In this document: piece by piece, positions 1,350-44,606 of the stretch
How positions within the stretch are numbered: the first letter of the stretch is position 1
How the letters are laid out: the number at the start of each line of letters is the position of its first letter
Source: Actinomycetospora termitidis
GTDB taxonomy: Bacteria > Actinomycetota > Actinomycetes > Mycobacteriales > Pseudonocardiaceae
Length of the DNA: 64,000 nucleotides
NCBI RefSeq assembly: GCF_030286555.1
Contig: NZ_JASVWF010000002.1
Span: forward strand, 310,001 to 374,000
Direction: 5' to 3'
Position numbers and translations under genes: made by a program
The notes under the pieces: model-generated
What the model saw: the letters and a program-made list of their open reading frames with translations, nothing else
Database searches by the model: none
What the model was told of the DNA's origin: nothing

Positions 1350-1405
1350 CGTCGTCGGGATGAGGGACCGGCACGAGGCCGGTCCACCACCCGAGGAGGA
1401 CGGCC

Positions 1406-1999: not shown

Positions 2000-2023
2000 C
2001 CCGGTCGGGCAGGATGAGCGGCC

Positions 2024-5130: not shown

Positions 5131-5142
5131 GGGGTCCTCCGG

Positions 5143-6989: not shown

Positions 6990-7000
6990 GTGTGTCCTTC

Positions 7001-9078: not shown

Positions 9079-9091
9079 GGGGACGCTCGCG

Positions 9092-9616: not shown

Positions 9617-9619
9617 GAA

Positions 9620-9648
9620 CTAACCTTACTTCGCATGGAAACGGTTAG
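9620..9648. promoter_or_regulatory. Dyad CTAACC-N17-GGTTAG over divergent starts
   Basis: CTAACC at 9620-9625 and GGTTAG at 9643-9648 form an inverted repeat with a 17-base spacer that covers the whole 18-base gap and the first codons of the hydrolase. It is well placed to be the autoregulatory site of the CGNR protein. Confidence 0.4.
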
Positions 9649-10462: not shown

Positions 10463-10480
10463 GGAAGCTACCCTCGCGGT

Positions 10481-10720
10481 ATGAGCGCAGAGCGGGTGAC
10501 GGTGAGCCTGCCGTCCGAGGTGCTGGCCATGGCACGGCACGCGGTGGCGGCCGGGGAGGCCGACAGCGTGTCGGCGTACGTCGCCCAGGCACTGACGGCG
10601 CGCCAGGCGAAGGCGCAGGCGCTCTCGCAGCTCCACGAGGTGCTCGGGGGACGACCCTCCGTCGCAGCGCTGAACGAGGTTCGCGCCCGGCTCGGGCTGC
10701 CGCTGCTCCCGACCGCGTGA
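10481..10720 (+). CDS. Ribbon-helix-helix antitoxin-like protein (VapB-like)
   Basis: A 79-residue protein with an N-terminal beta strand RVTVSLPSEV followed by two helices, the ribbon-helix-helix DNA-binding pattern of many antitoxins. Its stop overlaps the GTG of the next gene by four bases (GTGA at 10717-10720), the classic antitoxin-toxin coupling. The C-terminal half, which would bind and block the toxin, ends in a proline/leucine-rich tail. Role as antitoxin and autorepressor is inferred from size, fold and linkage. Confidence 0.78.
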   Translation: MSAERVTVSLPSEVLAMARHAVAAGEADSVSAYVAQALTARQAKAQALSQLHEVLGGRPSVAALNEVRARLGLPLLPTA

Positions 10721-11106
10721 TCGGCGGCAGGGTCCTCGACCTGTCCGCGCTGCTGGCCTTCGCCCGGCAGGACTCGGTCTACGCGGGCGCCCTGGTCTGG
10801 ACCGCGGTGGAGGAGGACATCGTCCTGCTCGTCCCCGCGACCGCGGCCGGCCTGGCGTGGGCCCGGCTCGACGAGAGCGCCCGGCCGGTCCTCGAGGTTC
10901 TCTTCGGTCTGCCGGTCACCGTGGTGGACGATCTCGACGCCGCACGCGCCCGCGAGACCGGGATCCTCCTGGACGGTCGCGATGCGCGGATCGACATCGC
11001 ACACGCGGCCGTCTGCGCGCAGCAGCGCGGCTGGCCGCTGGTCACGGCAGAAGCCGAGCCCTACGCGGCGCTGGGCGTTCCGCCCGAGATCGAACCGCTT
11101 CCCTAG
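10717..11106 (+). CDS. PIN-domain toxin-like protein (VapC-like)
   Basis: A 129-residue protein resembling PIN-domain ribonucleases. Seen: an N-terminal hydrophobic strand with Asp (VLDLSALL, first acidic residue) and a C-terminal stretch DARIDIAHAAVCAQQRGWPLVTAE that matches the third acidic position and the final strand of PIN domains. The usual last Asp is replaced by Glu/Ala in VTAEAEPY, so catalytic competence is uncertain. GTG start is fixed by the GTGA overlap with the antitoxin-like gene. VapC toxins cleave tRNA or rRNA; nothing here shows the target. Confidence 0.72.
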   Translation: MIGGRVLDLSALLAFARQDSVYAGALVWTAVEEDIVLLVPATAAGLAWARLDESARPVLEVLFGLPVTVVDDLDAARARETGILLDGRDARIDIAHAAVCAQQRGWPLVTAEAEPYAALGVPPEIEPLP

Positions 11107-11185
11107 CCGCTCACCTGCTCACGAACCGCTTCCGGCGGAATCGCTTTTCGAGCACCGTCGGAGGTCCGACGTCGCGCCCCGTGGA

Positions 11186-12223
11186 TCACGTCGTCGCCAC
11201 GAGGGACTTGGCCACCAGGCTGCGCCCCGCGGTGACGATCGCCTCCTCCGGGTCACGTGGTTGCCAGCCCAGCAGCTGCCGGGCCCGCTCGTTCGAGACC
11301 TTCTTGACGTGACCCAGCTCGGCCGCCGCGGTGCGGAGCTCCGTCGAGAACAGCGCGCCCGCCCGGACGACGAGGTTCGGGATCGTCCGGGTCGGCACGC
11401 GCGCGGCGTCGTCGCCGAGGTGCTCCCGCAGGGTCGCGCCGATCCGGCGCATCGGGATCGCGTCGCCCGTCGAGAGGAGGAACCGTCGACCGGCCGCCTC
11501 CGGCGTGGTCATGGCGCTGAGGTGTGCGCTCGCCACGTCGCGGACGTCCACCACCGGGATGGCGATGTCCGGGTAGCCCGGCAGCGTCCCGGCGAGCATG
11601 CGCTGGACGAGCTGGTTGGACCCGGAGATGTCGCGACCCAGCACCGGGCCCATGACGGCGACCGGCAGCATCGTCGTGAGCTCCAGGTCCTCGCCCTCGA
11701 CGAACTCCCACGCGGCCTGCTCGGCGAGGGTCTTGCTCCGCCCGTAGGCGTCCATCCCCGGGCCGTCGAGCACCGACCAGTCGCCCTCGGTGAACGTGTG
11801 GTCGGTGCGCGGGTGGCCGAAGCCGACCGCGTGGAAGGCGGACGTGAGCACGACCCGCCGCACCCCGCCGTCGCGTGCTGCACGCAGGACGCGCAGCGTG
11901 CCCTCGCGGGCGGGCCGGATGACGTCGTCCTCGTTCCCGACGTGGCCCGGCGCGACCGGCGAGGCGACGTGCAGCACGACGTCGCAGCCCGCGACCGCTT
12001 CCGCCCACCCGGCGTCGTCGGTGAGGTCGGCGGCGACGAAGGTCAGGTTCTCGCCGTGTACCAGGCCGGCCTCGGCGAGCACGGCCCGGACCGTGTCCTG
12101 CCGGGCGAGGGAACGCACCGTCGTCCGGACGAGGTGGCCCTGCTCGAGGAGCTGCAGGATGCAGTGGCCGGCGATGAAGCCGGACCCGCCGGTCACGAGG
12201 ACACGCTGTTGCGGGGTGGTCAT
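11186..12223 (-). CDS. NAD(P)-dependent epimerase/dehydratase family aldehyde or ketone reductase
   Basis: A 345-residue extended short-chain dehydrogenase of the dihydroflavonol-4-reductase/aldehyde reductase type. Seen: VTGGSGFIAGH near residues 9-19 (Rossmann), DLTDDAGW near 66, VVLHVASPV near 86, and the catalytic YGRSK near 160. Family members reduce carbonyl compounds with NADPH. It lies downstream of the SDR gene on the same strand (108-base gap with a GGTCCG dyad). The dyad resembles one in front of the XRE regulator, suggesting common control. Confidence 0.9.
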   Translation of the reverse strand: MTTPQQRVLVTGGSGFIAGHCILQLLEQGHLVRTTVRSLARQDTVRAVLAEAGLVHGENLTFVAADLTDDAGWAEAVAGCDVVLHVASPVAPGHVGNEDDVIRPAREGTLRVLRAARDGGVRRVVLTSAFHAVGFGHPRTDHTFTEGDWSVLDGPGMDAYGRSKTLAEQAAWEFVEGEDLELTTMLPVAVMGPVLGRDISGSNQLVQRMLAGTLPGYPDIAIPVVDVRDVASAHLSAMTTPEAAGRRFLLSTGDAIPMRRIGATLREHLGDDAARVPTRTIPNLVVRAGALFSTELRTAAAELGHVKKVSNERARQLLGWQPRDPEEAIVTAGRSLVAKSLVATT

Positions 12224-12306
12224 GGAGGCTCCGGAGGTCGACGGGCGGGGACGAGAGCGATCGTCCGCTCGCCGTCGGGACGAGCCCAGAGGCCGGATCA
12301 GCCATA

Positions 12307-12319
12307 GGTCCGTCGGACC
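12307..12319. promoter_or_regulatory. GGTCCG-T-CGGACC palindrome
   Basis: A perfect 13-base dyad between the SDR stop (12332) and the epimerase start (12223), 84 bases upstream of that start. Its GGTCCG half-site recurs in the dyad at 13373-13386 in front of the XRE regulator gene, so it may be a second operator of that regulator; it could also be a small terminator stem. Confidence 0.35.
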
Positions 12320-12331
12320 CAGTCTCGGGAC

Positions 12332-13273
12332 TCAGGCCCGCAGGGCGAGAGGTACCCCGATCAGCTCCTGGGAGACGGTCCAGACGCGCGCGGCCTCCTC
12401 GGCACTGCGCAACGGGCGGTAGGGGCGCTGCTCGGCCGGGGCACCGCGCAGGCCACCGAGCCCGTCCGGGCCGTAGAACCCGCCGTCGTGGACCTCGGGG
12501 GAGGTCGCGGCGTACAGGGCGGGGAGCAGGGCGGTGTCGATCGTGCCGAGCAGACCCCACCGCGACAGGGTCCGGATGACCGCGATCTGCGGGGTGTCCC
12601 GCTCGCGACCGACCTCCGGACGCGCGGCGAGCAGGTTCGTCGGGACGACGCCGGGGTGCGAGAGGGTGCTGGTGATCCCCCAGCCGTTCACCTGGCTGCG
12701 GCGGCCCAGCTCGAGCGCGAAGAGACCGAAGGCGATCTTCGACTGGGCGTAGGCGGCCCCGCCGTCGTAGGAGCGCTCCCACTGGAGGTCGTCCCAGTGG
12801 ATCGACCCCGAGCGCGCCGCGATGCTGAGCTGCGAGGTCACCCGCGCCCGGCCGGCGCGCAGCAGCGGCAGGAGGTGGGCGACCAGCGCGACGTGGCCCA
12901 GGTGGTTGGTGCCGAACTGCAGCTCGAAGCCGTCGGCGGTGGTCTGCCGGTCGGGTGGCGTCATGACGCCGGCGTTGTTGACCAGGACGTGGATCGGACG
13001 GCCCTCGGCCCGCAGGGCGGCGCCGAGCGCGGCGACGGAGGCGAGCGAGGACAGGTCGAGCTCGCGCAACGAGACCTCGGCGTCCGGGGTGCGCTCGCGG
13101 ATGGTCGCGACGGCGGCCTGCCCCTTGCGCGGGTTCCGGACGGGCAGGACGACCTCGGCACCGGCCGCGGCGAGCCGTGCGGCCAGGCCCAGGCCGACGC
13201 CGTCGCTGGCGCCGGTGACGACGGCGCGGCGGCCGGTGAGGTCGGGAACGGTGATGTCGGGGGTGCGGGACAT
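12332..13273 (-). CDS. Short-chain dehydrogenase/reductase (protochlorophyllide reductase-like SDR)
   Basis: A 313-residue classical SDR. Seen: [12 protein letters not shown] near residues 20-31, VNNAGVMTP near 98-106, a Ser-containing strand then YAQSK near 175 as the Tyr-Lys catalytic pair, and the LSHPGVV motif near 206-212. This subgroup, with extended length, reduces diverse carbonyls and its natural substrates are mostly unknown. It is divergent from the XRE regulator gene (157-base gap), a layout that recurs twice more in this window as XRE plus SDR pairs. ATG start chosen from conserved N-terminus length. Confidence 0.9.
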
Positions 13274-13372
13274 GCCGTCGACGGTGGCCCGTGGCCGCGC
13301 GGACAACCACGGCCCGCCGATCCGTGGCTGAGCGGGCCGCCCCGGCGCGGAGAGGGGGATCGACGATCCGTG

Positions 13373-13386
13373 GTCCGGAACCGGAC
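13373..13386. promoter_or_regulatory. Perfect dyad GTCCGG-AA-CCGGAC
   Basis: Lies 44 bases before the GTG start of the XRE regulator, in the divergent gap shared with the SDR gene. Probable operator for the regulator. A short direct repeat GATCCGTGG also occurs in this gap, one copy adjoining the dyad. Confidence 0.45.
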
Positions 13387-13430
13387 ATCGCCGGTAGGAA
13401 CGGGGCAGCATCCGAGGAGAGGACGGACCC

Positions 13431-14264
13431 GTGATCGATCGCGCCGGGCTGGCGACGTTCCTGCGGCGTCGTCGGGAGGCGTTGCAGCCCGACGACGTCG
13501 GACTCCCGCGGGGGCAACGTCGTCGGACGAGCGGGTTACGGCGCGAGGAGGTCGCGGCGCTGTGCCACATGTCGACCGACTACTACGCGCGGATCGAGCG
13601 GGAGCGCGGCCCGCAGCCCTCGGCGCAGATGATCGCCTCGATCGCGCAGGGCCTGCACCTCTCGCTCGACGAGCGCGACCATCTGTTCCGCCTCGCCGGG
13701 CACCACCCGCCGACCCGTGGCGCGGCGAGCTCACACGTCGGCCCCGGCCTGCTGCGCATCCTCGACCGGCTCGACGACACCCCGGCCGAGATCGTGACCG
13801 AGCTGGGGGAGACGCTGCGGCAGACCCCGATGGGCGTGGCGCTGACCGGCGACACGACCCGGTTCACCGGACCGGAGCGCAGCCTGGGCTACCGCTGGTT
13901 CACCGATCCTGCCGCCCGGGCGCTCTACCCGCCCGAGGACCACGACCTGCTGTCCCGCCGCTACACCGCGGGGCTGCGCGGCATCGTCACGCTCCGCGGG
14001 CCGGACTCCCGGGCGGCCCACCTGGCCGACCTGCTCCTCCCGTTGAGCGCCGAGTTCCGGGCGCTCTGGGAGACGCACGACGTCAACGTGCGGCCGCTCG
14101 ACCTCAAGCGCCTCGTGCACCCCGAGGTCGGCGCCCTGGAGCTGAACTGCCAGACCCTGCTCGACCCCGACCAGTCGCACCTGCTGCTGGTCTACACCGC
14201 GGTCCCCGGGTCGGAGAGCCACGAGAAGCTGCAGCTCCTGTCGGTGCTCGGCCGGGCGGGGTGA
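13431..14264 (+). CDS. XRE-type helix-turn-helix regulator with MmyB-like ligand domain
   Basis: A 277-residue regulator. Seen: helix-turn-helix [28 protein letters not shown] near residues 27-60, then a PAS-like MmyB domain with the conserved RWFTDPAAR near 155 and a [15 protein letters not shown] strand near 225-240. MmyB-like regulators bind a small hydrophobic ligand such as a fatty acid and often control the adjacent reductase. GTG start has GGAGAGGACGG upstream. It is divergent from the SDR gene at 13273. Two paralogues of the same architecture lie at 53853 and 57616. Confidence 0.92.
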
Positions 14265-14378
14265 CCGTCGCCGGCGTCGATCGGGCCTCCAGGGCTCCCC
14301 GCGCGGCCTCGCGGCAGCATTCCGTACCCGCTGATCATCGGCGCCGCCGCGGCCGGGTCCCGATGTAGGGAATCGGGA

Positions 14379-15965
14379 TCACGGTGACGCGCCGAAGGGT
14401 GTGGCGTCCTGACGGCAGACCGTGCCCGGCCGGGGCAGCGTCCCGTCCACGAAGTAGGCGCGTTGGGCGTCGGCGGCGCACCGGCTGGGGTTGAGGAAGG
14501 CGGTGTGGCCGTAGCCGACCACCGTGAGCAGCCGGGCGTTGCGGAGCTCGGTCGACATGAGGACGGAGTTCTGGAACGGCGTCGACGGGTCGCGGGTGGG
14601 CCCGAGGACGAGGATCGGTGCCTGGTTGCGGTTGAACGGCCCCCGGTACGGGTCGGCCGCCCGCACCGGCCACGTCGAGCACGGTTCGTCGCCCCACACC
14701 GCGTTCGCACCGATCGGTCCGTTGCGGGCCTCCGAGTTCCGCGCCAGCGCCCCGAACAGCCCGACCGGCGGCACGGCCGCGTCGCCGCACGACACCGCGT
14801 AGCCCTGCTCGGGGCCGTCGTAGGAGCTCGGCGGGGGCAGCGGGCCGTCGGGGGTGTCCGGCGGCAGCGGCACGTCCCGCGCGTCCCAGATGGCCTTCAT
14901 CCCGGCGGCGACCCCGGCCCAGCCCGCGGACCCGCCGTTCGTCACCGGGCTGGTGAACGGGAACGCGATGTCGAGGCCGTTGGAGATGCGCGAGACGAGG
15001 CCGGGGCCGGTGATGAGTTCGCTCCGGGGCGCGTACCAGATGGGTCCGTTCGCCAACCGCGCCAGCAGCTGGTTCCACCGGTCGACCGTGGCTTGGGGCG
15101 AGCCCGCCGAGAACGCGCAGCGGGACGCGTCGACCTGTCCGCACAGCCGGAGCAGGTCGCCGAGCACCGAGCTCGCGGCCGTGTCGGAGCCGATGCGCAT
15201 CGAGATGCTGCGGGTGGTCACCGGCAGGTTCCGGTCGGTCCAGGCCGACGGGGCGAGGTTCCCGTCGAGCACCATGGCGCGGACCTTGTCGGGGAAGAGG
15301 TTCGCGTAGGTCGCGCCGAGGAAGGTGCCGTACGACAGCCCGATGTAGTTCAGCTTCGCGTCGCCGACGGCCTGCCGGAGCAGGTCGAGGTCGCGGGCGG
15401 TGTCGGCGGTGTTCGCGTGCTCGAGGAGGGCACGGTCCCGGGCTGCGCACGCCTGCCCGAACCGGCGCCAGGTGTCGACGTAGGCCGCGGCCTGCCCCGG
15501 CGTCGTCGGATAGTCCGCGCTGTCGCCGAGGAACCGGCCCTCCGCCTCCTGACTGTCGAAGCACTGCACCGGCGTGCTCTCGCCGACGCCGCGGGGGTCC
15601 CAGGAGACGACGTCGAACCGGTCCTGCAGGCCCGCGGGCAGCAGGCGGATCCACGCGCTGATCTGACCGGTGCCCGTCCCGCCCGGCCCGCCCGGGTTGA
15701 GGAAGAGCGACCCGATCTTCGGTCCGGTCGCGGGCTTGCGGGTGACGGCGAGGGTGATCGTCCGGCCGCGGGGATCGCGGTGGTCCAACGGCACGGTCGC
15801 CGTGGCGCACTGGAACCCGGCCTGGGCGGGCGGCGAGTCCTTCTCGCACTTTCCCCACGCCAGGGGCGGCACGAGGGGCCCCGGCGGGGGCGCGGCCCAG
15901 CCGGTGCCGGTGAGCACGGCGGCGAGCAGGGTGGCGACGGCGGTCACGAGCAGCGCTCGCGTCAT
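14379..15965 (-). CDS. Secreted tripeptidyl aminopeptidase-like alpha/beta hydrolase
   Basis: A 528-residue serine hydrolase of the streptomycete tripeptidyl aminopeptidase (SAP/TAP) family, predicted to act outside the cell on peptides. Seen: an N-terminal signal peptide (MTRALLVTAVATLLAAVLTG, cleavage likely after the AWAA-like region near residue 25), LNPGGPGGTG oxyanion region near 91-100, GLSYGTFLG near 205-213 with the nucleophile Ser, LGPTRDPSTP near 455 (Asp) and VGYGHTAF near 487 (His). ATG start has GGGAGAGGA upstream. It follows the CPBP protease gene after 32 bases on the same strand. Confidence 0.92.
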   Translation of the reverse strand: MTRALLVTAVATLLAAVLTGTGWAAPPPGPLVPPLAWGKCEKDSPPAQAGFQCATATVPLDHRDPRGRTITLAVTRKPATGPKIGSLFLNPGGPGGTGTGQISAWIRLLPAGLQDRFDVVSWDPRGVGESTPVQCFDSQEAEGRFLGDSADYPTTPGQAAAYVDTWRRFGQACAARDRALLEHANTADTARDLDLLRQAVGDAKLNYIGLSYGTFLGATYANLFPDKVRAMVLDGNLAPSAWTDRNLPVTTRSISMRIGSDTAASSVLGDLLRLCGQVDASRCAFSAGSPQATVDRWNQLLARLANGPIWYAPRSELITGPGLVSRISNGLDIAFPFTSPVTNGGSAGWAGVAAGMKAIWDARDVPLPPDTPDGPLPPPSSYDGPEQGYAVSCGDAAVPPVGLFGALARNSEARNGPIGANAVWGDEPCSTWPVRAADPYRGPFNRNQAPILVLGPTRDPSTPFQNSVLMSTELRNARLLTVVGYGHTAFLNPSRCAADAQRAYFVDGTLPRPGTVCRQDATPFGASP

Positions 15966-32923: not shown

Positions 32924-33418
32924 TCACGCCGCGAGCGCCGCCTCGAGGTCCGCGGTGAGCGTCTCCTCCTCGGCGGTGTCCGGCCAGTGCCGGACCCACC
33001 GGCCGTCCGGGTCGACCAGGTAGGTCATCGCGGTGTGCGGCACGGCGTAGCCGTCCGGGTCCTCGGGGTCCGCGCGGCGGCGCGCGAACACCCGGAAGGT
33101 CTCCTTGGCCGCCTCGACCTGCTCCGGCGTACCGGTCAACCCCGTGAAGCGCGGGTACGACGTCGTCAGGAAGGCCTTCATGACGTCGGGTGTGTCCCGG
33201 TCGGGGTCGACCGTCACGTAGAGCGGACGCACCCGGTCGACGTCGTCGCCGAGCCCGTCGAGGGCGGCGGTCAGCTTGGTCAGCGCGCGCGGACACACCA
33301 CGCGGCACGAGGTGAAGCCGAACTGCACCAGCAGCCACGAGCCGCGGTAGGTCCCGGCGTCGACGGGTGTGCCGTGATGGTCGACCAGGTCGAACCCGAT
33401 CGCGGTCGGTGCGCTCAC
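32924..33418 (-). CDS. SCO1/SenC-family thioredoxin-fold protein without signal peptide
   Basis: A 164-residue SCO-like protein. Seen: FGFTSCRVVCPRAL near residues 34-47 giving the CxxxC pair, VDPDRDTPDVMKAF near 70-83, and PHTAMTYLVDPDGRWVRHW near 124-142 with the third copper ligand His. SCO proteins normally are membrane-anchored copper chaperones for cytochrome oxidase, but this one begins directly at the fold with no signal or transmembrane segment, so it is predicted cytosolic. GTG start fixed by GTGA overlap with the linalool dehydratase-like gene. A thiol-redox role for that partner is my inference. Confidence 0.87.
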   Translation of the reverse strand: MSAPTAIGFDLVDHHGTPVDAGTYRGSWLLVQFGFTSCRVVCPRALTKLTAALDGLGDDVDRVRPLYVTVDPDRDTPDVMKAFLTTSYPRFTGLTGTPEQVEAAKETFRVFARRRADPEDPDGYAVPHTAMTYLVDPDGRWVRHWPDTAEEETLTADLEAALAA

Positions 33419-34875
33419 GGCACGAGCTCCAGGTCGCGGGCCGGGCCCGGAGGCACTTCGAGGGTGACGGTGCCGTCGGCCGCGATCTCCTGCCCGTCGA
33501 ACCGCAGCCGCGCGCCGGGTGGGACGCGGTCGATGACCACGGTCGCTTCGTCGCCGCTCCGCCGCCGCAGCCGCGCGTGCAGCACGCCGTCGACCACCTG
33601 GGCCCGGCTGACCTCGACGTCCCGCCCGACCTCGGTGAGCGCGGGCTCCGCGAAGTGCTCGGCGCCCCACGGCTCCTGGTAGAGCGTGTGGAGCCCGTCG
33701 GGGACGTTGAGGCGGGCGTAGCCGATCAGGACGTTCCCGGACATCGGCTCGATGTCGGTGCGGTTCCCGTCGGCGTCGGTCGGGGTGTCGTTGCGGGGGT
33801 AGGACAGGGCGCCGTCGCGCCAGGTCGGGTTCATGAAGCGGTCGGCGTGGGCGAGGATGCCGTCCAGCGTCGCCCGGTCGCCCATCTCGGAGGCCCAGGC
33901 GGCGACCCACCCGAGGTCGCAGGTGTCGTTGACGACGGTCTGCCCCATGACGTTCATGGCGGGCGTGGACCGGACCGAGATCGTTCCGTCGGGCCCGGGG
34001 ATCAGGAAGTCGGCGACCTGGCGCGGGTAGTTCTCGCGGACGAAGTCGCGGTTCCAGGTGTTCATCAGCGCGCCGCACCACGCGTCGACCCACGGCGCCT
34101 GCAGCGCGTTCGGCGCGACGACCTTGGTGTCCTCGAGGATCATCTGGTTGTAGTGCCCGGCGTCGTCCAGGCGCCCGAAGTCGGCCCAGGCCTTCTGGTA
34201 GCCGGCGACGACCTCCTCGGCGCGGTCGCCGCCGGTGATCACGTCGTGCAGCCGGAAGCCGAGGATGGCGGGCTGGTTGCAGATCTGGAACACGCAGTTC
34301 GGCTCGCACGCGATGCCGAGGTAGCCGTTCTGCACCATCTGCCAGTACAGGTTCTCGTTGAGCGACTCCCGGTCGTAGACGAAGCGCTTCGGCTCACCGC
34401 CCCAGAAGAACGACCAGTGCTCGAAGGTCAGCGCGCCCGGCTGCGCGTACCGGTCGTCGGCGAACAGGACGTCGTGCAGCAGCGCGCACGACTGCACGTA
34501 CGCCGAGTACATGATGTTGTCGCGCACCACCGGGTCCCACTCCTCGTGGTAGCCCTCGGAGAGGTGCGCGTTCATGACCATCCCGCCGCGGGACGCGTCG
34601 CGCCAGTACATCCAGACGTCGGGCATGAGCAGCTTCTCGATCAGCCGCTGGATCGTCGGGCGGACGACGCCGGGTGCGGCCGGGAGGCGGTGGCGGTGGG
34701 TCAGGGCGAGCCCGTAGATCATGTAGGCGAGCTGGAAGCGGTAGCTGCCGAAGTCGTCCTCGCCGGCGCCCTTGCCCTGCATGCCGGACCAGTCGTGCGG
34801 CAGCCGACGGGACAGGTCGTCCCAGTGGCGCAGGTGTCCCAGCTGGGCCTCGTCGAGCACGGACGGCGTCGTCAT
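33415..34875 (-). CDS. Linalool dehydratase/isomerase-family protein
   Basis: A 486-residue protein related to Castellaniella linalool dehydratase-isomerase (Ldi), an alpha6/alpha6-barrel enzyme. Aligned from memory of Ldi: AYMIYGLA near residue 60, RDNIMYSAYVQ near 120-130, and GIACEPNCVFQICNQ near 184-198, where Cys-X8-Cys matches Ldi Cys171/Cys180 spacing. The Ldi His129 position appears to be Tyr (SAY), and the protein has about 100 extra C-terminal residues and no signal peptide. It therefore probably acts in the cytosol on another terpenoid or a different substrate. Divergent from the acyl-CoA synthetase gene; coupled to the SCO-like gene. Confidence 0.82.
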   Translation of the reverse strand: MTTPSVLDEAQLGHLRHWDDLSRRLPHDWSGMQGKGAGEDDFGSYRFQLAYMIYGLALTHRHRLPAAPGVVRPTIQRLIEKLLMPDVWMYWRDASRGGMVMNAHLSEGYHEEWDPVVRDNIMYSAYVQSCALLHDVLFADDRYAQPGALTFEHWSFFWGGEPKRFVYDRESLNENLYWQMVQNGYLGIACEPNCVFQICNQPAILGFRLHDVITGGDRAEEVVAGYQKAWADFGRLDDAGHYNQMILEDTKVVAPNALQAPWVDAWCGALMNTWNRDFVRENYPRQVADFLIPGPDGTISVRSTPAMNVMGQTVVNDTCDLGWVAAWASEMGDRATLDGILAHADRFMNPTWRDGALSYPRNDTPTDADGNRTDIEPMSGNVLIGYARLNVPDGLHTLYQEPWGAEHFAEPALTEVGRDVEVSRAQVVDGVLHARLRRRSGDEATVVIDRVPPGARLRFDGQEIAADGTVTLEVPPGPARDLELVP

Positions 34876-34982
34876 GCGCTCCGACCGTACGCAGCGGGGC
34901 GACGCGCGCCACACCCGTTCGGGTGTGCCGTGACACGGACTGCACCGGTCTGATGCGCAGGCACATCGACGTGGAGGTGACG

Positions 34983-36497
34983 GTGGACGGTCCCGGAGAC
35001 ATCCTGCGCGGGGTCGGCCCGCGGTTCGGCGACAAGCCGGCGCTGGTGACGGCGACGCGGACGCTGAGCTTCGCCGAGCTGGACGCGCTGAGCGACCGGG
35101 TCGCCGCCGGGCTCGTCGCGCGCGGGGTGACGGCCGGGCGGCCGGTGTCGCTGTACGCGCAGAACCGGTGGGAGTGGGTCGTCGCGTACCACGGGGCGCT
35201 CAAGGCGGGTGCGGTCGTGAACCCGGTGAACGTCATGCTCACGCCGGAGGAGCTGGCCTTCGTCCTGCGGGACTGCGGCGCGGCGGCGGTGTTCACCAGC
35301 GCCGAGCAGGCCCCGACGGTGCTCGAGCTGACGCGGGACCTGCCCGAGCCGCTCACGGTGGTGGCGTTCGGGTCGGTGGAGGGCGCGGTCGCGTTCGACG
35401 AGCTGCTGGCCTGCGAGGAGCCGGCCCCGGCCGTCCTCACGAAGCCCGAGGAGCCGTCGACGATCGGCTACACGTCGGGCACCACCGGCCACCCGAAGGG
35501 CGCGGTGCAGAGCCACCGCGCGGTGCTGCTCAACTGCGCGCTCACCGCGACGATGCACGGGCGGCGTGAGGACGACGTCGTCGTGACCGCCCTGCCCGCG
35601 CCGCACGTCTACGGCAACGTCGTCATCAACGGGACGTTGCTGGCCGGCGGCACCGTCGTGCTGATGGAGCGGTTCTCGGCGTCGGAGGCGCTGCGGCTGA
35701 TCGGCGAGCACCGGGCGACGCTGTTCGAGGGCGTCCCCGCGATGTACGCGATGCTGCTCGCGGATCCGGGTCTCGCCGACGCGGACCTGTCGTCGCTCAC
35801 GCGCTGCACGGTGGGCGGGCAGACGATCCCGCTCTCGACGATCGAGCGGTGGCAGACCCGCTCGGGCGCGCCGCTGATCGAGCTGTGGGGCATGACGGAG
35901 GTCGCGGGCCTCGGCACCACGCACGCGCTGTACGCGCCGCCGGTGCCGGGGTCGATCGGGGTGGCCCTGCCCGGGATCGAGCTGCGGATCGCGGACCTCG
36001 AGGACGTCCGGCGCGACGCCCCGACCGGCGAGCCAGGGGAGCTGATGGTGCGCGGCCCGATCGTCATGTCCGGGTACCACGGCAACCCGGAGGCGACCGC
36101 CGAGACGATCGAACCGGACGGCTGGCTGCACACCGGCGACGTCGCGACGATGGACGCAACCGGCCACGTGTTCGTCGTCGACCGCCGCAAGGACATGATC
36201 ATCACGGGCGGCTACAACGTCTACCCGGCCGAGGTCGAGCGGGTGCTGGCCGCGCACCCGAAGGTCGCGATGGTGGCGACGGGGCCCGTTCCCGACGACG
36301 TCCGGGGCGAGATCGCGTGCGCCTACGTCGTACCGGTCGCGGGGTCGGAGCCGACCGAGGACGAGCTCGTCGAGTATGCCCGCGAGCACCTCGCGGCCTA
36401 CAAGCGCCCGCGGCTGGTGCGCTTCGTCGAGACGCTGCCCGCGACGTCGACCGGGAAGATCATGCGTCGTGAGCTCATCAAGCAGTTCACGCCGTGA
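34983..36497 (+). CDS. AMP-dependent acyl-CoA synthetase (long/medium-chain type)
   Basis: A 504-residue adenylate-forming ligase. Seen: YTSGTTGHPKGAVQSH near residues 163-178, ELWGMTEVAG near 300, GWLHTGDVATMDATGHVFVVDRRKDMI near 380-406, and the C-terminal TSTGKIMRREL with the catalytic Lys near 494. It makes acyl-AMP then acyl-CoA from a carboxylic acid. The GTG at 34983 is chosen because GGAGG stands at ideal spacing before it; an ATG at 34953 has no ribosome site. It lies divergent from the linalool dehydratase-like gene (107-base gap) and immediately before the histidine kinase gene. Confidence 0.92.
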   Translation: MDGPGDILRGVGPRFGDKPALVTATRTLSFAELDALSDRVAAGLVARGVTAGRPVSLYAQNRWEWVVAYHGALKAGAVVNPVNVMLTPEELAFVLRDCGAAAVFTSAEQAPTVLELTRDLPEPLTVVAFGSVEGAVAFDELLACEEPAPAVLTKPEEPSTIGYTSGTTGHPKGAVQSHRAVLLNCALTATMHGRREDDVVVTALPAPHVYGNVVINGTLLAGGTVVLMERFSASEALRLIGEHRATLFEGVPAMYAMLLADPGLADADLSSLTRCTVGGQTIPLSTIERWQTRSGAPLIELWGMTEVAGLGTTHALYAPPVPGSIGVALPGIELRIADLEDVRRDAPTGEPGELMVRGPIVMSGYHGNPEATAETIEPDGWLHTGDVATMDATGHVFVVDRRKDMIITGGYNVYPAEVERVLAAHPKVAMVATGPVPDDVRGEIACAYVVPVAGSEPTEDELVEYAREHLAAYKRPRLVRFVETLPATSTGKIMRRELIKQFTP

Positions 36498-36528: not shown

Positions 36529-37623
36529 GTGGACCCGACGGAGCTGACGCGCGAGCACGCCGAGCTGGTCGGCCTGCTCGACCGGCGCGCGGCGGTCCGG
36601 GCGGCCCTGGACCTGCTGCGCGCCGAGGGCGAGGTCGCGTGGGTGGCGGAGCCGGCCGACCCGTCCTCCGAGGACCTCGTCCTGGCTCAGCTCGTGGGCG
36701 ACCGGACCGGCCTGCTGCGGGGTCTGACGGTCGCCCGTGGACACGGGCTGACCGGCAAGGTGCACGCGTCCGCGACGCCGGCGTGGGTCGACGACTACCT
36801 CGGCTCGGCCGAGATCACGCACACCTTCGACCGGGTCATCGACCTCGAGGGGGTGCAGCGGCTGCTGGCCGTGCCGGTCCGGCGGGACGACCGGCTCCTC
36901 GGGGTGCTGGCCGTCGGCGCGCGGTCGGCGGGGACCTTCGGGGGTCGGGCCGCGGAGCGGGCGGAGGCGGTCGCGCACGAGGTGGCGCTCGCCGTGGCGG
37001 TGGCCGAGCGGGCGCGGCTGGCCCGGGAGGTCGCCGTCCACGAGGAGCGCAGCCGGATCGCCGCGAACCTGCACGACAGTGTGGGCGCGCTGCTGTTCGC
37101 GATCGGGTCCGGGATGGCGGGGCTGAGCGAGGCGATGGGGGCGGATCCTGAGCTGGCGCTCCGGTTGTCGCGGCTGCAGGACCAGGCTCAGGAGGCCTCG
37201 GCGGCGTTGCGGGACTCGCTGCGGACGCTCCGGGCGTCGCCCGCGGCGTTGGAACTGTCGGTGGTGCTGCAGGAGGACTGCTCGGCGTTCAGCGACCGCA
37301 CGGGCGTGCCGGCCGAGCTGGTGATGCTGGACGACCCGCCGTCGTTGCCGCCGTCGCGGACGGACGTGGTGATCGCCGGCGTGCGCGAGGCGCTGCTGAA
37401 CGTCGAGAAGCACGCGAGCGCCTCTGCCGTGGTGGTCAGCGTGGCGCGCCGGGCCGGATCGCTCGTGGTCGCGGTGACCGACGACGGCGTCGGGCCGGCC
37501 GGGACCGCATCGGGACTCGGGTTGACGACGACGTCGGACGCGGTCGGCCGGCTCGGCGGCACCCTGCGCGTCCTGCCCGACCCGCACGGCGGCACCACCT
37601 GGAGGCTCGAGCTGCCGTGCTGA
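36529..37623 (+). CDS. Sensor histidine kinase (GAF plus HisKA_3/HATPase)
   Basis: A 364-residue cytosolic kinase of the NarL-type two-component class. Seen: a GAF-like domain (residues about 20-160, with GLTGKVHASATPAWVDDYLGS), dimerisation/phosphoacceptor EERSRIAANLHDSVGALLF near 170-188 with His near 180, and ATPase boxes VREALLNVEKHASA near 284-297 (N box) and VTDDGVGPAGTASGLGL near 317-333. No transmembrane helices, so the GAF domain may sense an internal signal or gas. The start is uncertain; GTG at 36529 is the first reasonable codon after the ligase stop. Overlaps the response regulator gene by 7 bases. Confidence 0.88.
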   Translation: MDPTELTREHAELVGLLDRRAAVRAALDLLRAEGEVAWVAEPADPSSEDLVLAQLVGDRTGLLRGLTVARGHGLTGKVHASATPAWVDDYLGSAEITHTFDRVIDLEGVQRLLAVPVRRDDRLLGVLAVGARSAGTFGGRAAERAEAVAHEVALAVAVAERARLAREVAVHEERSRIAANLHDSVGALLFAIGSGMAGLSEAMGADPELALRLSRLQDQAQEASAALRDSLRTLRASPAALELSVVLQEDCSAFSDRTGVPAELVMLDDPPSLPPSRTDVVIAGVREALLNVEKHASASAVVVSVARRAGSLVVAVTDDGVGPAGTASGLGLTTTSDAVGRLGGTLRVLPDPHGGTTWRLELPC

Positions 37624-38213
37624 GCACGGTGCGCGTGCTCATCGTCGACGACCACCCCGTCGTCCGCGACGGCGTGGCCTCGCAGCTCGCGCGGCACAGC
37701 GACATCGAGGTCGTCGGGCACGCGGGCGACGCGGCGGAGGCGACGTCGGTGTGCGGCCGCGAGCGACCCGACGTCGTGCTGCTCGATGTCCGTCTGCCCG
37801 ACGCGCTGGCCGCGGACGTCGTCCCGCGGTTGCGGGAGGTGTCGCCGTCGACCCGGGTGCTGCTGTTCACGGCGTTCCCGGAGCACTCGGCGGTGGCGCC
37901 GTCGCTCGCGGCCGGCGCGGTGGGGCTGTTGGTGAAGGACGCCTCCGGAACGGAGCTGGGCGCGGCGATCCGGGACGTCGCCCGGACCGGGTCGTACCGC
38001 GGCGACGTCCCCGGCACGGACGCGCCGCTGACGCCCCGCGAGTACGACGTGCTCCGTCTCGTCGCGTCCGGACACACGAACGGCGAGATCGGGGCCGAGC
38101 TGCGGTTGTCCCCGAACACCGTCAAGACCTACCTGCACAACGTCATGCGCAAGCTCGACGCCCGTAACCGCGCTCAGGTCATCACCAACGCCCGCGCCCA
38201 CGGGCTGCTCTGA
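37617..38213 (+). CDS. NarL/LuxR-family response regulator
   Basis: A 198-residue regulator. Seen: receiver domain with acidic pocket LIVDDHPVVRDG near residues 8-19, phosphoacceptor Asp in VVLLDVRLP near 57, Lys in LLVKDAS near 104, and the HTH LTPREYDVLRLVASGHTNGEIG near 139-160. Partner of the histidine kinase encoded just upstream and overlapping it. Targets are not evident; the divergent linalool dehydratase-like/SCO genes and the acyl-CoA synthetase are the closest candidates. Its stop lies one base from the stop of the convergent CocE gene. Confidence 0.95.
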   Translation: MLSTVRVLIVDDHPVVRDGVASQLARHSDIEVVGHAGDAAEATSVCGRERPDVVLLDVRLPDALAADVVPRLREVSPSTRVLLFTAFPEHSAVAPSLAAGAVGLLVKDASGTELGAAIRDVARTGSYRGDVPGTDAPLTPREYDVLRLVASGHTNGEIGAELRLSPNTVKTYLHNVMRKLDARNRAQVITNARAHGLL

Positions 38214-40426: not shown

Positions 40427-42385
40427 TCATCGCCCCGGCCCCGTGGCAGGTGCGTAGCGGGCGAAGGCGGCGAGGAGATCGGGGTCGTCGACGGCGTCGC
40501 GCCCGGCGACCCGGTCGAGCTTCGCGCCCTGGAGCAGGCGTTTGACCGGGACCTCGAGCTTCTTGCCGGTCCGCGTGTGCGGGATGGCGTCGACGGCGAG
40601 GACGTCGTCGGGGACGTGGCGCGGGGAGGCCTGCGTGCGGATCGCGGCCGTGATCCGGTCGCGGAGCGTCGCATCGAGGTCGGTACCGGGCTCGAGGACC
40701 ACGAACAGCGGCATCCAGTAGCCCCCGTCGTCGAGCTCCGCGCCGATGACGAGGGCCTCCCGCACCTCGGGCAGTGCCTCGACGACGGCGTAGATGTCGG
40801 CGCTGCCCAGGCGCACGCCGTGCCGGTTCAGGGTGGAGTCGGATCGGCCCGAGACGACGACGGAGCCGCGGGAGGTGAGCGTGACCCAGTCGCCGTGGCG
40901 CCAGACGCCCGGGTAGGTCGAGAAGTAGGCGTCGCGGTAGCGCTCGCCGTCGGGATCGGCGACGAAGCGGATCGGCATCGAGGGCATCGGCCGGGTGATC
41001 ACCAGTTCGCCGACCTCGTCGAGGACCGGCCGGCCGTCGGCGTCCCACGCCTCGAGGGCGACCCCGAGCAGCGGCGCGGAGATCTCGCCGGGCCACACCG
41101 GAGTGGTCGGTGAGCTGCCGGCGAAGCCGGAGACGACATCGGTGCCCCCGGTGCTCGAGGCGAGCTGGACCGCGGTGCCGACGTGGTCGTGCACCCAGTG
41201 GTACGAGCTCGCGGGCAGCGGTGAGCCGGTGCAACCGAGGACCCGCAGGGCGCCGAGGTCGTGGCTGCGACCCGGATCGAGGCCCGCCTTCGCGCTCGCG
41301 AGGAGGTAGCCGGGACTGACGCCGAGGAGCGCGACCCGGTGCGCGGCGGCGAGGGTCCAGAGCCGTCCCGGGTCCGGGTGGGCGGGGCTCCCGTCGTAGA
41401 GGACCACCGTCGCCCCGACGAGCAGGCCGGAGACCTGGACGTTCCACATCATCCAGTTCGGGGTCGTGTACCAGAGGAACCGGTCGCCGTCGTGCAGGTC
41501 GAGGTGCAGGCCCAGGAGCTTGAGGTGGTCCAGCAGCACCCCGCCGTGGCCGTGGACGATGCCCTTCGGGACGCCGGTGGTGCCCGAGGAGAACAACACC
41601 CACAGTGGGGCGTCGAAGGCCACGCGCGCGAAGGTCGGCTCCGCCGGCACGGCGAGGGCCTCGTCCCAGCCCACGGCGCCCGGCGGCAGGCCCAGCCCCA
41701 CGTGCTCCACGCCGACCGTGTGGCGCAGGGTCGGCAGCACGGCGCGCAGTGCCTTGACCTCGTCGCGGCGGTCGTGCACCCGCCCGTTCCACCGGTAGCC
41801 GTCGGCGGCGACCAGCACGACCGGTTCGAGCTGGGCGAAGCGGGCCGCAGCACCTCCGGCTGCGTAGTCCTGGCCGCAGACCGACCAGACGGCGCCGAGG
41901 CTCGCGCAGGCGAGGAACGCGACGAGGGCGTGGGTGCCGTTCGGCAGGTACCCCACCACCCGGTCCCCGGCGACGACGCCGTGCCCGCGCAGCCACCCGG
42001 CGAAGGCGCCGACCTCGGCGCGGAGCTCGCCGCGGGTGCAGGCGGTGGTCGTGCCGTCCTCGGTCTCGGCGACGACGACGAGCTCGTGGCCGTCGCCGCG
42101 CAGCGCGTGCTCGGCGTAGTTCAGGGCGACGTCGGGGAACCAGCGCGCACCGGGCATCGCGTCGTCGACGAGGACGCGGCCCCGATCGCCGTCGACCTGC
42201 ACGTCGAAGAGGTCGAGCACCGCCGTCCAGAACTCCGCGAGGTGCTCCACCGACCAGCGCTGCAGCGCGTCGTAGCCGTCGAGTTCGACGCCGTGCCGCT
42301 CGGTGACGAGGCGGGCGAGCGCCGTGATGCGGGCGTCCTGCACGGCCGCCTCGTCCGGGACCCAGATCGGGTCGATGTCGGTCAC
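40427..42385 (-). CDS. Acetoacetyl-CoA synthetase (acetoacetate-CoA ligase)
   Basis: A 652-residue AMP-forming ligase. Seen: FSSGTTGVPKGIVHGHGG near residues 259-276, ASSTGGTDVVSGF near 410-422, YFSTYPGVWRHGDWV near 490-504, and HTRTGKKLEVPVKRLL near 607-622 with catalytic Lys. The size and the VWRHGDW and GGTD features fit acetoacetyl-CoA synthetase rather than acetyl-CoA synthetase. It would convert acetoacetate, a possible product of ring cleavage, to acetoacetyl-CoA. GTG start fixed by GTGA overlap with the P450 gene; last gene of the minus-strand arm of the NodD-type cluster. Confidence 0.9.
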   Translation of the reverse strand: MTDIDPIWVPDEAAVQDARITALARLVTERHGVELDGYDALQRWSVEHLAEFWTAVLDLFDVQVDGDRGRVLVDDAMPGARWFPDVALNYAEHALRGDGHELVVVAETEDGTTTACTRGELRAEVGAFAGWLRGHGVVAGDRVVGYLPNGTHALVAFLACASLGAVWSVCGQDYAAGGAAARFAQLEPVVLVAADGYRWNGRVHDRRDEVKALRAVLPTLRHTVGVEHVGLGLPPGAVGWDEALAVPAEPTFARVAFDAPLWVLFSSGTTGVPKGIVHGHGGVLLDHLKLLGLHLDLHDGDRFLWYTTPNWMMWNVQVSGLLVGATVVLYDGSPAHPDPGRLWTLAAAHRVALLGVSPGYLLASAKAGLDPGRSHDLGALRVLGCTGSPLPASSYHWVHDHVGTAVQLASSTGGTDVVSGFAGSSPTTPVWPGEISAPLLGVALEAWDADGRPVLDEVGELVITRPMPSMPIRFVADPDGERYRDAYFSTYPGVWRHGDWVTLTSRGSVVVSGRSDSTLNRHGVRLGSADIYAVVEALPEVREALVIGAELDDGGYWMPLFVVLEPGTDLDATLRDRITAAIRTQASPRHVPDDVLAVDAIPHTRTGKKLEVPVKRLLQGAKLDRVAGRDAVDDPDLLAAFARYAPATGPGR

Positions 42386-43578
42386 GACGGCGTGAGGGCG
42401 ACCGGGAGGTGCTCGAACCCGCGCAGCATCCGGTTGTCCTTGCGCCGCGCGACGCCGGCCGGGTGGATCTCCGCCACGGACGACACCAGCTCCTCGAGGA
42501 CGACGCGCCCGATCATCCGCGCGACCGGCGCGCCCAGGCAGAAGTGGACCCCGCGGCCGAAGGCGAGGTGCTCGTTGGGCGTGCGGTCGATCAGGAAGCG
42601 GTCCGGGTCCGGGAACTGCCGCGGGTCGCGGTTCGCGCTGCCGAAGGCGACCATCACGCGGGCACCGGGCGGGAGGGCGACCCCGGCGACGGTGGTCTCG
42701 GTGGTGGTGACCCGGAAGAACCCGGGCTGCACCGGCGACTCGAACCGCAGCGACTCCTCGACCGCGCCCGGCGCCAGGTCCGGCCGCTCCCGCAGCCGCC
42801 GCCACTGCTCGGGGTGGGTCGCCAGCGCGTGCAGGAGGTTGCCCAGCATGTTCACGGTCGTGTCCATCGCCGCGACGAGGATGCCGCCGAGCAGCGAGAC
42901 GACCTCACCCTGCGCGAGCTCGCCCCGTTCACCCGCCCCGACGATGCGGTCGGCCCAGCCCCCGGTGACATATTCACCGTCGGCCGCGATCTGTCCGACG
43001 AGGCCGAAGAGCCCGCCGATGGCCTCCCCGAGCACCGACGACTCCCCGCCGGCCGGGCACCCCATCGAGTCGAAGATCGTCGATGCCCACCGGCAGTACT
43101 CGTCCCGGTGCCGGTCGGGATAGCCCATCAGCTCGGCCATGACCGTCGTCGGCACGGGCTGGGCGACGTGGCCGACCCAGTCGATCTCGCCCTCGGCCAG
43201 TGCGACGTCGAGGGCGCGGCCCACGAGCTCGCGGACCCGCGGTTCGAGCTGACCGATGGCCTTCGGGGTGAAGTCCCGGGCAACGGCGCGGCGCACGCGC
43301 GTGTGCTCGGGCGGATCCGTCGACAGGATCACCCCGCCCTCCTCCGGCGTCGCGACCGGCTCGAGGCCGGCGCCCTGCGCGGACGAGAACGTCTCCCAGT
43401 CCTTCAGGACGGCTGCGACGTCGTCGTAGCGGGAGACCAGCCAGACGCCGTAGCGGTCGAGGTGCGTGCACGGCGCCTCGTCCCGGAGCGCGGCGAGCGC
43501 CGGGTACGGGTCGGCGCGCTGCTCGGGGGCGAACGGGTCGAAGGCCGACCACGTCGGGGACGCCGAGGTCGTGGTCAC
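42382..43578 (-). CDS. Cytochrome P450
   Basis: A complete 398-residue soluble P450. Seen: I-helix VAAMDTT near residues 236-242 (the usual Gly of A-G-x-D/E-T-T is Ala here), ESLRF near 277 (ExxR), and FGRGVHFCLG near 339-348 with the Cys ligand. GTG start overlaps the dioxygenase stop (GTGA), and its own stop overlaps the synthetase start. It would hydroxylate the ring or side chain of the substrate of the neighbouring dioxygenase; ferredoxin partner genes are not adjacent. The altered I-helix may change oxygen activation or just reflect family drift. Confidence 0.93.
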   Translation of the reverse strand: MTTTSASPTWSAFDPFAPEQRADPYPALAALRDEAPCTHLDRYGVWLVSRYDDVAAVLKDWETFSSAQGAGLEPVATPEEGGVILSTDPPEHTRVRRAVARDFTPKAIGQLEPRVRELVGRALDVALAEGEIDWVGHVAQPVPTTVMAELMGYPDRHRDEYCRWASTIFDSMGCPAGGESSVLGEAIGGLFGLVGQIAADGEYVTGGWADRIVGAGERGELAQGEVVSLLGGILVAAMDTTVNMLGNLLHALATHPEQWRRLRERPDLAPGAVEESLRFESPVQPGFFRVTTTETTVAGVALPPGARVMVAFGSANRDPRQFPDPDRFLIDRTPNEHLAFGRGVHFCLGAPVARMIGRVVLEELVSSVAEIHPAGVARRKDNRMLRGFEHLPVALTPS

Positions 43579-44606
43579 GACGGCTCCACCTCCGGCGCCC
43601 GGGCCGCCCACGGGTTGGTCAGCTCCTCGTGCAGCTGCGGGGAGACGCCGTCCTCGGTGCCCGCCATCCCGGTCGCGGCCGGGAACGCCTCCATCATCGA
43701 GTCGGGCATGTGCCAGTTGCGGAAGAAGTCGTTCGACCCCTCCGACGGCCGCCACGTGCGGGCCCGCCAGTCCGGGACGTAGTTGCGGTAGCCCCCGGAG
43801 TTCAGCTCGACGCGCAGGCTGCTCGGCTCGCGGAAGTAGAGGAAGTGCTGCTCGCCGATGCCGTGCACCGACGGTCCGTACTCGATGGGCGTGCCGTGCT
43901 CGAGGAGGAGGTCCGCCGTCCGGACGAGGTCCTCGGGATGGTCGGCCCAGAAGGCGATGTGGTGGACGCGCCCCGCCGTCGCAGACGTGTCGACGACGAT
44001 GCCGAGGTCGTGGGACTTCTCGTTGGTGGTCAGGACCGAGAAGACCGTGACGGGGGCGTCCTCGAGGTCGGTGAAGGCCATGACCCGGAAGCCGAGGACC
44101 TCGGAGTACCACTGCGCGAAGCCGCGGACGTCGGAGGCCGCGATGGTCACGTGGTCGAGGAAGCGCGGCGCGGCGGCGTGGCTGCTGCGCCGTTCGGGGC
44201 GGTCCGGGTAGACCGACGTGTAGCCGTCCTCCGCCTCGAACGGCGGAACGTCCCAGACCAGGCCCATCCGGTGCCCGAAGGGGCCGACGAACGTATAGGT
44301 CCGCCCCTGGGCGGGCGGGTCCTCGCGCCACTCCCCGGTGACGCCGGCCGCCTCCACCCGCGCGACCGCCTCGTCGAGGGCCTCGGCGCTGTCGGTCCGC
44401 CACGTCATGGTCGCGAGACCGGCGTCGGGCCCCGGGGATACGACCAGGCTGTGGCGGTAGTGGTCCCCCCAGCACCGCAGGTGGACCTTGCCATCGGCCC
44501 GGTCGATCACGCGCAGTCCGAAGCGTTCCACGTAGAACGCGACCGACGATTCCACGTCGGGGCTCGTGATCTCGAGCGAGAGCAGGTGGCTCAGCAGGCG
44601 GGCCAT
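43575..44606 (-). CDS. Extradiol catechol dioxygenase, two-domain VOC type
   Basis: A 343-residue protein with two tandem VOC domains, as in catechol 2,3-dioxygenases. Seen: N-terminal non-catalytic domain (SHLLSLEITSPDVESS near residue 6-21), and a catalytic domain with the metal ligands His in FLDHVTIA near 151, His in RVHHIAFW near 216 and Glu in LRVELNSGGYRN near 265. A Tyr and a His nearby fit the family's proton-transfer residues. It is the first gene of the minus-strand arm, 217 bases from the LysR gene, with ATC-N9-GAT boxes in between. Confidence 0.9.
   Translation of the reverse strand: MARLLSHLLSLEITSPDVESSVAFYVERFGLRVIDRADGKVHLRCWGDHYRHSLVVSPGPDAGLATMTWRTDSAEALDEAVARVEAAGVTGEWREDPPAQGRTYTFVGPFGHRMGLVWDVPPFEAEDGYTSVYPDRPERRSSHAAAPRFLDHVTIAASDVRGFAQWYSEVLGFRVMAFTDLEDAPVTVFSVLTTNEKSHDLGIVVDTSATAGRVHHIAFWADHPEDLVRTADLLLEHGTPIEYGPSVHGIGEQHFLYFREPSSLRVELNSGGYRNYVPDWRARTWRPSEGSNDFFRNWHMPDSMMEAFPAATGMAGTEDGVSPQLHEELTNPWAARAPEVEPS

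Follow-up and report, generated by a model that had tools for sequence, protein, structure and literature searches.

Introduction

Linalool dehydratase-isomerase from Castellaniella defragrans (Ldi, also LinD; Pfam family PF18566) is described as an enzyme in which Cys170 and Cys179 must be reduced and the Cys48–Cys101 pair oxidised, and which needs dithiothreitol (DTT) (PMC6600392). Linalool isomerase (Lis) is similarly described as activated by reductants (PMC4791888). SCO proteins are presented as membrane-anchored proteins that bind copper through a CxxxC motif and a distal histidine and that act at the CuA site as copper chaperones and/or thiol reductases, and the reviews treat them as factors for the copper sites of cytochrome oxidase (PMC6696091, PMC9145763). 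Here we describe a gene pair of Actinomycetospora termitidis that joins a protein of each family: an Ldi-like gene followed by an SCO1/SenC-like gene, located in a stretch of 64 000 nucleotides (contig NZ_JASVWF010000002.1, positions 310 001–374 000; referred to as the window) of a 6.56 Mb genome. We propose, with a probability of roughly 55%, that the pair encodes a cytosolic Ldi-family enzyme and a dedicated SCO protein that serves the CxxxC motif of the enzyme, copper handling being likelier than plain disulfide reduction.

The window protein resembles Castellaniella Ldi in its predicted fold, in the CE..CN sequence with its CX8C spacing and in an NIM motif before the position of His129. 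It differs from it in having tyrosine for His129, in lacking a counterpart of Cys48–Cys101 and a visible signal peptide, and in possessing Cys194, an H-x-H motif, Met32, a C-terminal β domain and an SCO partner. A longer Ldi-like branch, to which we take Lis of Thauera linaloolentis to belong, shares the Ldi domain and, by eye, a similar-looking C-terminus; its sampled members have long N-terminal hydrophobic parts of their own (also by eye), and they differ from the window protein in having CEPNW or a similar sequence in place of CEPxC and no SCO gene found nearby. The SCO proteins linked to Ldi share family, CxxxC motif and distal histidine with SCO1/SenC copper chaperones such as Bradyrhizobium Blr1131 (PDB entry 4wbj), but they lack a membrane or lipid anchor, form a clade of their own among the SCO proteins compared and are tied to an Ldi-family enzyme rather than to cytochrome oxidase. 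The arabinofuranosidases of glycoside hydrolase (GH) families GH127 and GH146, which match weakly in a fold search, have three cysteines and one glutamate at their site; unlike the window protein, they are glycosidases with zinc, and we know of no SCO partner for them.

Conservation of the gene pair

Both open reading frames lie where the first-pass annotation had placed them (Table 1), and the stop codon of the Ldi-like gene overlaps the start codon of the SCO gene by four bases (GTGA). The Ldi-like protein matches PF18566 over residues 46–364 (E = 9.3e-112), while a search of NCBIfam returned no family for it; the SCO-like protein matches PF02630 (SCO1-SenC; E = 3.2e-42, cut-off 22.8 bits). 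Each is the only protein of its kind in the host genome, the linked SCO being the sole PF02630 match over the cut-off; a second, sub-threshold match appears by eye to be an AhpC/TSA-type peroxiredoxin. One scan of viral contigs for a viral origin found no relative.

A scan of genome contigs identified 21 relatives of the Ldi-like protein (44–86% identity) in Actinomycetospora, Pseudonocardia, Streptomyces, Amycolatopsis, Rhodococcus koreensis, Rhodopseudomonas, Bradyrhizobium and Panacagrimonas, which represent both Actinomycetota and Pseudomonadota. An SCO gene is present near the Ldi gene at all 21 loci and lies directly downstream, within ∼0.6 kb, at 20 of them; at the other (L007) it is upstream, with one ATP-binding cassette (ABC) binding-protein gene in between. 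Nine plasmid records contain an Ldi match that covers 80% or more of the query. The SCO gene is directly downstream in seven of them (Allorhizobium S4 and six Agrobacterium vitis, with gene positions in five of the latter taken from search rows only), and in a Variovorax plasmid it lies ∼10 kb upstream in a same-strand gene row that ends in Ldi. The top eight plasmid matches of the SCO protein (56–58% identity, the next being 50%) belong to these same eight records, that of Rhodococcus erythropolis standing aside. Among 22 Ldi/SCO junctions examined, a set without the window, L007, L022 and L030, 17 overlap (14 by four bases, three by 8–11) and the remaining five have gaps of 3, 10, 10, 535 and 537 bases.

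In a sample of 160 Pseudonocardiaceae genomes, searched once with each profile and in part possibly of the same species as the contig-scan loci, Ldi (E ≤ 1e-60) occurs in eight, all with CEPxC and one of them (G1380) truncated. The SCO protein at the same threshold occurs in nine, namely these eight and G267, which retains an Ldi remnant. Coordinates place the two genes side by side in 8/8 genomes, with SCO upstream in G1328. In four further genomes, none of the eight, SCO matches at 1e-26 to 4e-41 have N-termini that look exported. The hypergeometric probability of the co-occurrence is 1e-12 with phylogeny ignored. Six genus-mates of the host are included in this sample: the pair is present in three, of which one has a truncated Ldi, a fourth has SCO with a remnant of Ldi, and the other two lack both genes.

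The background frequencies are as follows. PF18566 was detected in 6/369 genomes around Panacagrimonas, and window-type Ldi (E ≤ 1e-10) in 2/289 genomes around Bradyrhizobium, the second being a distant match, and in 7/298 genomes of the host's order, mostly distant. SCO proteins over the cut-off are found in 117/298 genomes of the order and thus are not rare there as such, while the linked type (E ≤ 1e-30) is found in 1/394 genomes of the class, that of the window itself. No SCO gene was detected near 13 distant Ldi-family members within 10.7–17 kb (ten loci) or 3.1–3.6 kb (L025, L027 and L028). Chance adjacency was rejected on the basis of 21/21 contig-scan loci and 8/8 Pseudonocardiaceae genomes, so that the pairing on which the first-pass annotation had built its proposal is a conserved one.

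A third cysteine in the SCO-linked clade

Residues were compared between a near set of 25 sequences (the window, L002–L015, L017–L021, L023, L030–L032 and L036) and a distant set of 13 (L104–L107, L110, L113, L114, L025, L027, L028 and L033–L035). L016 (truncated), L022 (frame-broken), L029 and L112 (remnants), L117 and the shorter copies L024 (of L114) and L026 (of L113) were left out, and L108 and L109 were excluded because tblastn did not match them to the window protein at 1e-3. Ten residues are invariant in all 38 members: Cys190, Glu191, Cys199, Asn200, Asp211, Asn120, Met122, Pro65, Pro115 and Pro411. The CX8C pair reported at first pass is therefore present, with Cys190 and Cys199 aligned with the cysteines of the solved Ldi, but the clade motif (CEPxCxFxxCN) holds three conserved cysteines and not two. 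The one overlooked, Cys194, is found in 25/25 near and 0/13 distant sequences, which have Trp, Leu, Ala or Lys, and it turns the catalytic CX8C into C190-x3-C194, a CxxxC motif. The reading of this residue covers 19 of the 21 loci of the contig scan and three of the eight plasmid records with both genes.

His60, His62 and Met32 divide the two sets in a similar way (Table 1), and several tryptophans and other residues are also specific to the SCO-linked clade. Two sequences found after the motif had been defined, L123 (40% identity) and L124 (46%), keep Met32, His60, His62, Cys190, Cys194 and Cys199. In an Ldi tree calculated without column 194, the 25 sequences with Cys194 occupy one side of a branch with a Shimodaira–Hasegawa-like approximate likelihood-ratio test (SH-aLRT) value of 99, although the depth of this branch is uncertain owing to long branches that meet there (program warning). 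The window protein groups with Actinomycetospora and one Pseudonocardia.

Fold and family residues of the Ldi-like protein

An AlphaFold2 model built from 20 aligned sequences has a mean predicted local distance difference test (pLDDT) score of 86 and a predicted template-modelling score (pTM) of 0.91. In a Foldseek search of the PDB, the first 27 matches are all Ldi chains (E values of 8e-13 to 2e-11, template-modelling scores of 0.71–0.76 over Ldi and 16–18% identity). The model thus supports the Ldi fold assumed at first pass. The next matches are a phage tail protein (2.7e-5), GH76 (from 7.7e-5) and GH127 (from 4.5e-4).

The last of these matches raises a different reading of the site, in which the Ldi-like protein would be a zinc-thiolate enzyme like GH127/GH146, with zinc held by three cysteines and one glutamate, one cysteine acting as nucleophile and the SCO protein only guarding the site from copper. 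HypBA1 is reported to have such a Zn-Cys3-Glu site with a cysteine nucleophile (PMC10728902), and CEPNC..C would offer three cysteines and one glutamate. However, the Foldseek match is weak, and Glu191, Cys190 and Cys199 are family-wide and hence also present in Ldi, for which the portions of the literature at hand mention no zinc. We regard this reading as very improbable.

The only cysteines of the Ldi-like protein are at positions 130, 190, 194, 199, 267 and 319. No cysteine precedes residue 130, and a counterpart of the Cys48–Cys101 disulfide is absent, which fits a location in the cytosol; inspection also revealed no signal peptide, in agreement with the first-pass annotation. Tyr126 is aligned opposite Ldi His129 (a residue number taken from that annotation and not from a search result), so the substitution noted there stands. 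That it marks a new catalytic type is not supported: of the 25 clade members, 22 have Tyr here and three have His, L123 has Arg, and the 13 distant members, counted by eye, have Tyr (7), Phe (3), Trp (2) or His (1). The substitution was accordingly rejected as the key novelty. The alignment is uncertain near the N-terminus, where Ldi has what we assume to be its general acid, Asp39.

The extra C-terminal residues, initially put at about 100, amount to 122 beyond the Pfam match, with strands in the model (Table 1). The extension was rejected as a special feature because distant members have a similar-looking tail (by eye) and Pro411, Val422, Ala425 and Leu432 are common to 12–13 of the 13.

The linked SCO proteins

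The window SCO matches the Blr1131 structure with a phmmer E value of 5.9e-30, and it contains the CxxxC motif recognized earlier. Inspection and N-terminal hydropathy revealed no export signal, the N-terminus not being hydrophobic, again as first described. None of the 25 linked SCO proteins has a membrane or lipoprotein anchor: the top hydropathy over 15 N-terminal residues is at most 0.83 at the chosen starts. When the start is picked to maximise this value, it reaches at most 1.24 at 13 linked loci, compared with 1.69–2.79 in 31 unlinked SCO proteins (L054 and L055, without CxxxC, having been dropped), which have lipobox or transmembrane-like starts. Ten linked SCO genes (L004, L008, L011, L013, L014, L018, L020, L029, L031 and L036) have only one possible in-frame upstream start codon.

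In an SCO tree, a branch with an SH-aLRT of 98 separates the 25 linked proteins from 13 unlinked ones. These 13 were chosen from the 31, all of them from the same genomes and order, so that unlinked kin may exist elsewhere. Six of 11 genomes searched have no SCO over the cut-off besides the linked one. A housekeeping role as an oxidase factor was rejected on the basis of the missing anchor and the separate branch; a cytosolic SCO protein should not reach CuA.

Proposed role of the SCO protein

Judging from the missing export signals, both proteins would be cytosolic. On the evidence of its fold, family cysteines and neighbours, the Ldi-like protein probably acts as an allylic-alcohol (de)hydratase/isomerase, and its product would feed a route of alcohol dehydrogenase (ADH), aldehyde dehydrogenase (ALDH) and acyl-CoA synthetase. 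The catalytic cysteine pair of the clade has gained a third cysteine and so a CxxxC motif, accompanied by invariant HxH and Met; the co-inherited anchorless SCO would bind this loop and keep it functional, somewhat more probably by loading or removing copper than by plain disulfide reduction. We favour copper because the distal histidine, a copper-specific residue, does not vary and because the residues that set the clade apart are soft metal ligands, but we infer both the action of SCO on the Ldi CxxxC and the involvement of copper. The two CuA cysteines themselves form a CxxxC motif. The earlier suggestion that the SCO protein services the enzyme cysteines gains strength from the third cysteine, which is specific to the clade and accompanies SCO.

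Alternatively, SCO could be a dedicated metal-free thiol-disulfide reductase that keeps Cys190, Cys194 and Cys199 reduced in aerobic hosts. The reported oxygen sensitivity of Ldi and its need for DTT (PMC6600392), together with the effect of reductants on Lis (PMC4791888), would agree with this, and Cys194 could ease formation of a C190–C194 disulfide. On the other hand, cytosolic thioredoxin should suffice for such a task, the copper-type distal histidine is invariant (25/25), His60, His62 and Met32 stay unexplained, and the Sco protein of Streptomyces lividans is described as a chaperone without thiol-reductase activity (PMC6696091). We consider this explanation possible, yet clearly less probable than the proposed helper of the CxxxC motif; the two share an SCO that acts on CxxxC, so our estimates overlap and do not sum to one.

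A stronger version of the copper proposal, which we hold to be doubtful, is that the clade consists of cytosolic copper-thiolate (de)hydratases/isomerases in which Cys190, Cys194 and Cys199 with His60 and His62 or Met32 hold SCO-delivered copper. Such a clade would give SCO proteins their first client beyond the copper sites of respiration and would add to the rare copper enzymes of the cytosol.

Several observations weigh against the proposed cytosolic enzyme–helper pair. To our knowledge, the bacterial cytosol does not host copper enzymes. The model is weak near the site, with pLDDT below 50 for residues 37–40 and 186–189 and averages of 51 and 61 for blocks 181–190 and 191–200. The clade with Cys194 possibly has a single origin, in which case its traits and the SCO partner are not independent events, and part of the correlation that the Ldi and SCO trees show in their distances (r = 0.70 for the 23 loci with both; Mantel test, 0 of 2000), in itself an argument for the pair, comes from shared descent or species history. 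The R. erythropolis plasmid pRSLBG43 (L032) encodes a C194-type Ldi with the full Cys/His/His/Met signature and, by eye, an export-type N-terminus resembling those of twin-arginine translocation substrates or lipoproteins, and its 29 kb contain no SCO gene, the chromosome lying outside the search. Genome G1420 has a partial second C194 copy (residues 102–366) with no SCO gene within 19 kb. Finally, Castellaniella Ldi is reported to be inactive when made in the cytosol (PMC6600392), so that a relative located there need not be functional. At two loci it is Ldi that is damaged beside an intact SCO gene (most of it missing in L112, from G267, and the N-terminal third in L016, with the C-terminal part left), and enzyme decay seems to precede SCO loss.

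The Ldi–SCO pairing was not found in print among the open-licence papers listed, judged by titles and starts of abstracts, which does not prove its absence; no title among the matches listed concerns a cytosolic or soluble Sco, and the active-site terms looked for were not found in PMC12455561. If the proposal is correct, an anchorless SCO clade co-inherited with one non-respiratory type of CxxxC enzyme widens the roles of SCO proteins. The pair would provide a small soluble two-protein system for the old question of whether SCO is a copper chaperone or a thiol reductase, and it may yield a cytosolic relative of Ldi that can do without the periplasmic disulfide, a requirement that restricts the biocatalytic use of Ldi.

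Genomic context

Table 1. Features of the window and of two related loci (Ldi residue counts: near set, 25; distant set, 13)
Feature	Position	Strand	Remarks
Ldi-like gene	34875–33415	−	ATG at 34875, stop 33415; 486 amino acids; PF18566, 374 bits
SCO1/SenC-like gene	33418–32924	−	GTG at 33418, stop 32924; 164 amino acids; PF02630, 144 bits
Ldi-like Met32	34780..34782	−	25/25 near, 0/13 distant (two of these are gaps)
Ldi-like H60-x-H62	34690..34698	−	His60 25/25 near, 0/13 distant; His62 25/25 near, 1/13 distant
Ldi-like Tyr126	34498..34500	−	Opposite Ldi His129
Ldi-like C190-E-P-N-C194-VFQI-C199	34279..34308	−	Family CX8C with clade-specific third Cys
Ldi-like C-terminal β domain (residues 412–485)	33421..33642	−	AlphaFold2 secondary structure
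SCO C38-x3-C42	33293..33307	−	Copper/thiol motif; invariant in 25/25 linked SCOs
SCO His128	33035..33037	−	Distal copper ligand of the family; invariant in 25/25 linked SCOs
Acyl-CoA synthetase	34923..36497	+	PF00501; divergent from Ldi-SCO; some relatives also have it next to the pair
GAF sensor histidine kinase and LuxR-type response regulator	36529..38213	+	Same module as acyl-CoA synthetase
L110 (genome G303)	609–7357		C194-less Ldi-family gene in ADH-response regulator-histidine kinase-acyl-CoA synthetase module, no SCO
L032 (R. erythropolis pRSLBG43)	8485–15059		ALDH-ADH-AMP ligase-Ldi

The module of acyl-CoA synthetase, histidine kinase and response regulator is found beside Ldi-SCO at four of the 21 loci (L002, L003, L006 and L011), in a rearranged form with ADH in Amycolatopsis (L011). 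The genome of Amycolatopsis jejuensis (G303), to which L011 belongs, contains a second Ldi-family gene (L110), ∼24% identical and without Cys194, whose neighbours are related to those of the module (acyl-CoA synthetase 79%, histidine kinase 61%, response regulator 73% and ADH 51%). No SCO gene is present in 13 kb around it, and the only SCO over the cut-off in this genome adjoins the C194-type Ldi. Here SCO tracks the enzyme type and not the pathway, although a single case is not proof. The idea that Ldi-SCO belongs to the module as a constant component was rejected, since all three module genes occur at only 4/21 loci and L110 has the module without SCO.

This case also bears on the idea that the two proteins are operon mates without direct contact, the SCO protein coping with copper or peroxide stress while the substrate is used. 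On the A. vitis and Allorhizobium plasmids (L031 and L036, from grapevine-associated strains) the gene order is TetR, Ldi, SCO and then resistance-nodulation-division (RND) efflux genes, which would suit such a role, and a role of yeast Sco proteins in the defence against oxidative stress is reported (PMC6307045). The preference of SCO for the C194 type of Ldi over the module at L110 and the stop/start overlap of the two genes speak against it, and we consider it improbable.

Other orders are Ldi-SCO-ALDH-ADH in Panacagrimonas (L018) and Ldi-SCO-regulator-ALDH-ADH in R. koreensis (L013); no other neighbour tested recurs in most loci. These genes fit a route from alcohol through aldehyde and acid to acyl-CoA, as in the use of acyclic monoterpenes by Castellaniella and Thauera, and for a terpenoid alcohol as substrate, the ADH, ALDH and acyl-CoA synthetase genes present at some loci give no more than a suggestion. 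Branched-chain-type ABC importers upstream in Bradyrhizobium and Variovorax suggest that the substrate of some hosts may be more polar. At L013, genes for a carbon-nitrogen hydrolase and a haem dehydratase (PF13816) lie upstream of Ldi-SCO (2479–4633).

In the window, a row of acetoacetate-CoA ligase, P450-like and catechol 2,3-dioxygenase-like genes is located near the pair (40427–44606). On a Rhodococcus opacus plasmid (L034, 7167–10436), a CEPNW-type Ldi is followed by a gene for the oxidase-assembly protein Caa3_CtaG (PF09678), perhaps by chance; used as a query, it found no other among the loci tested. On a plasmid of Aureimonas sp. AU20 (L035, 6763–9386), a CEPNW-type Ldi gene and the end of uppS, annotated as polyprenyl diphosphate synthase, overlap.

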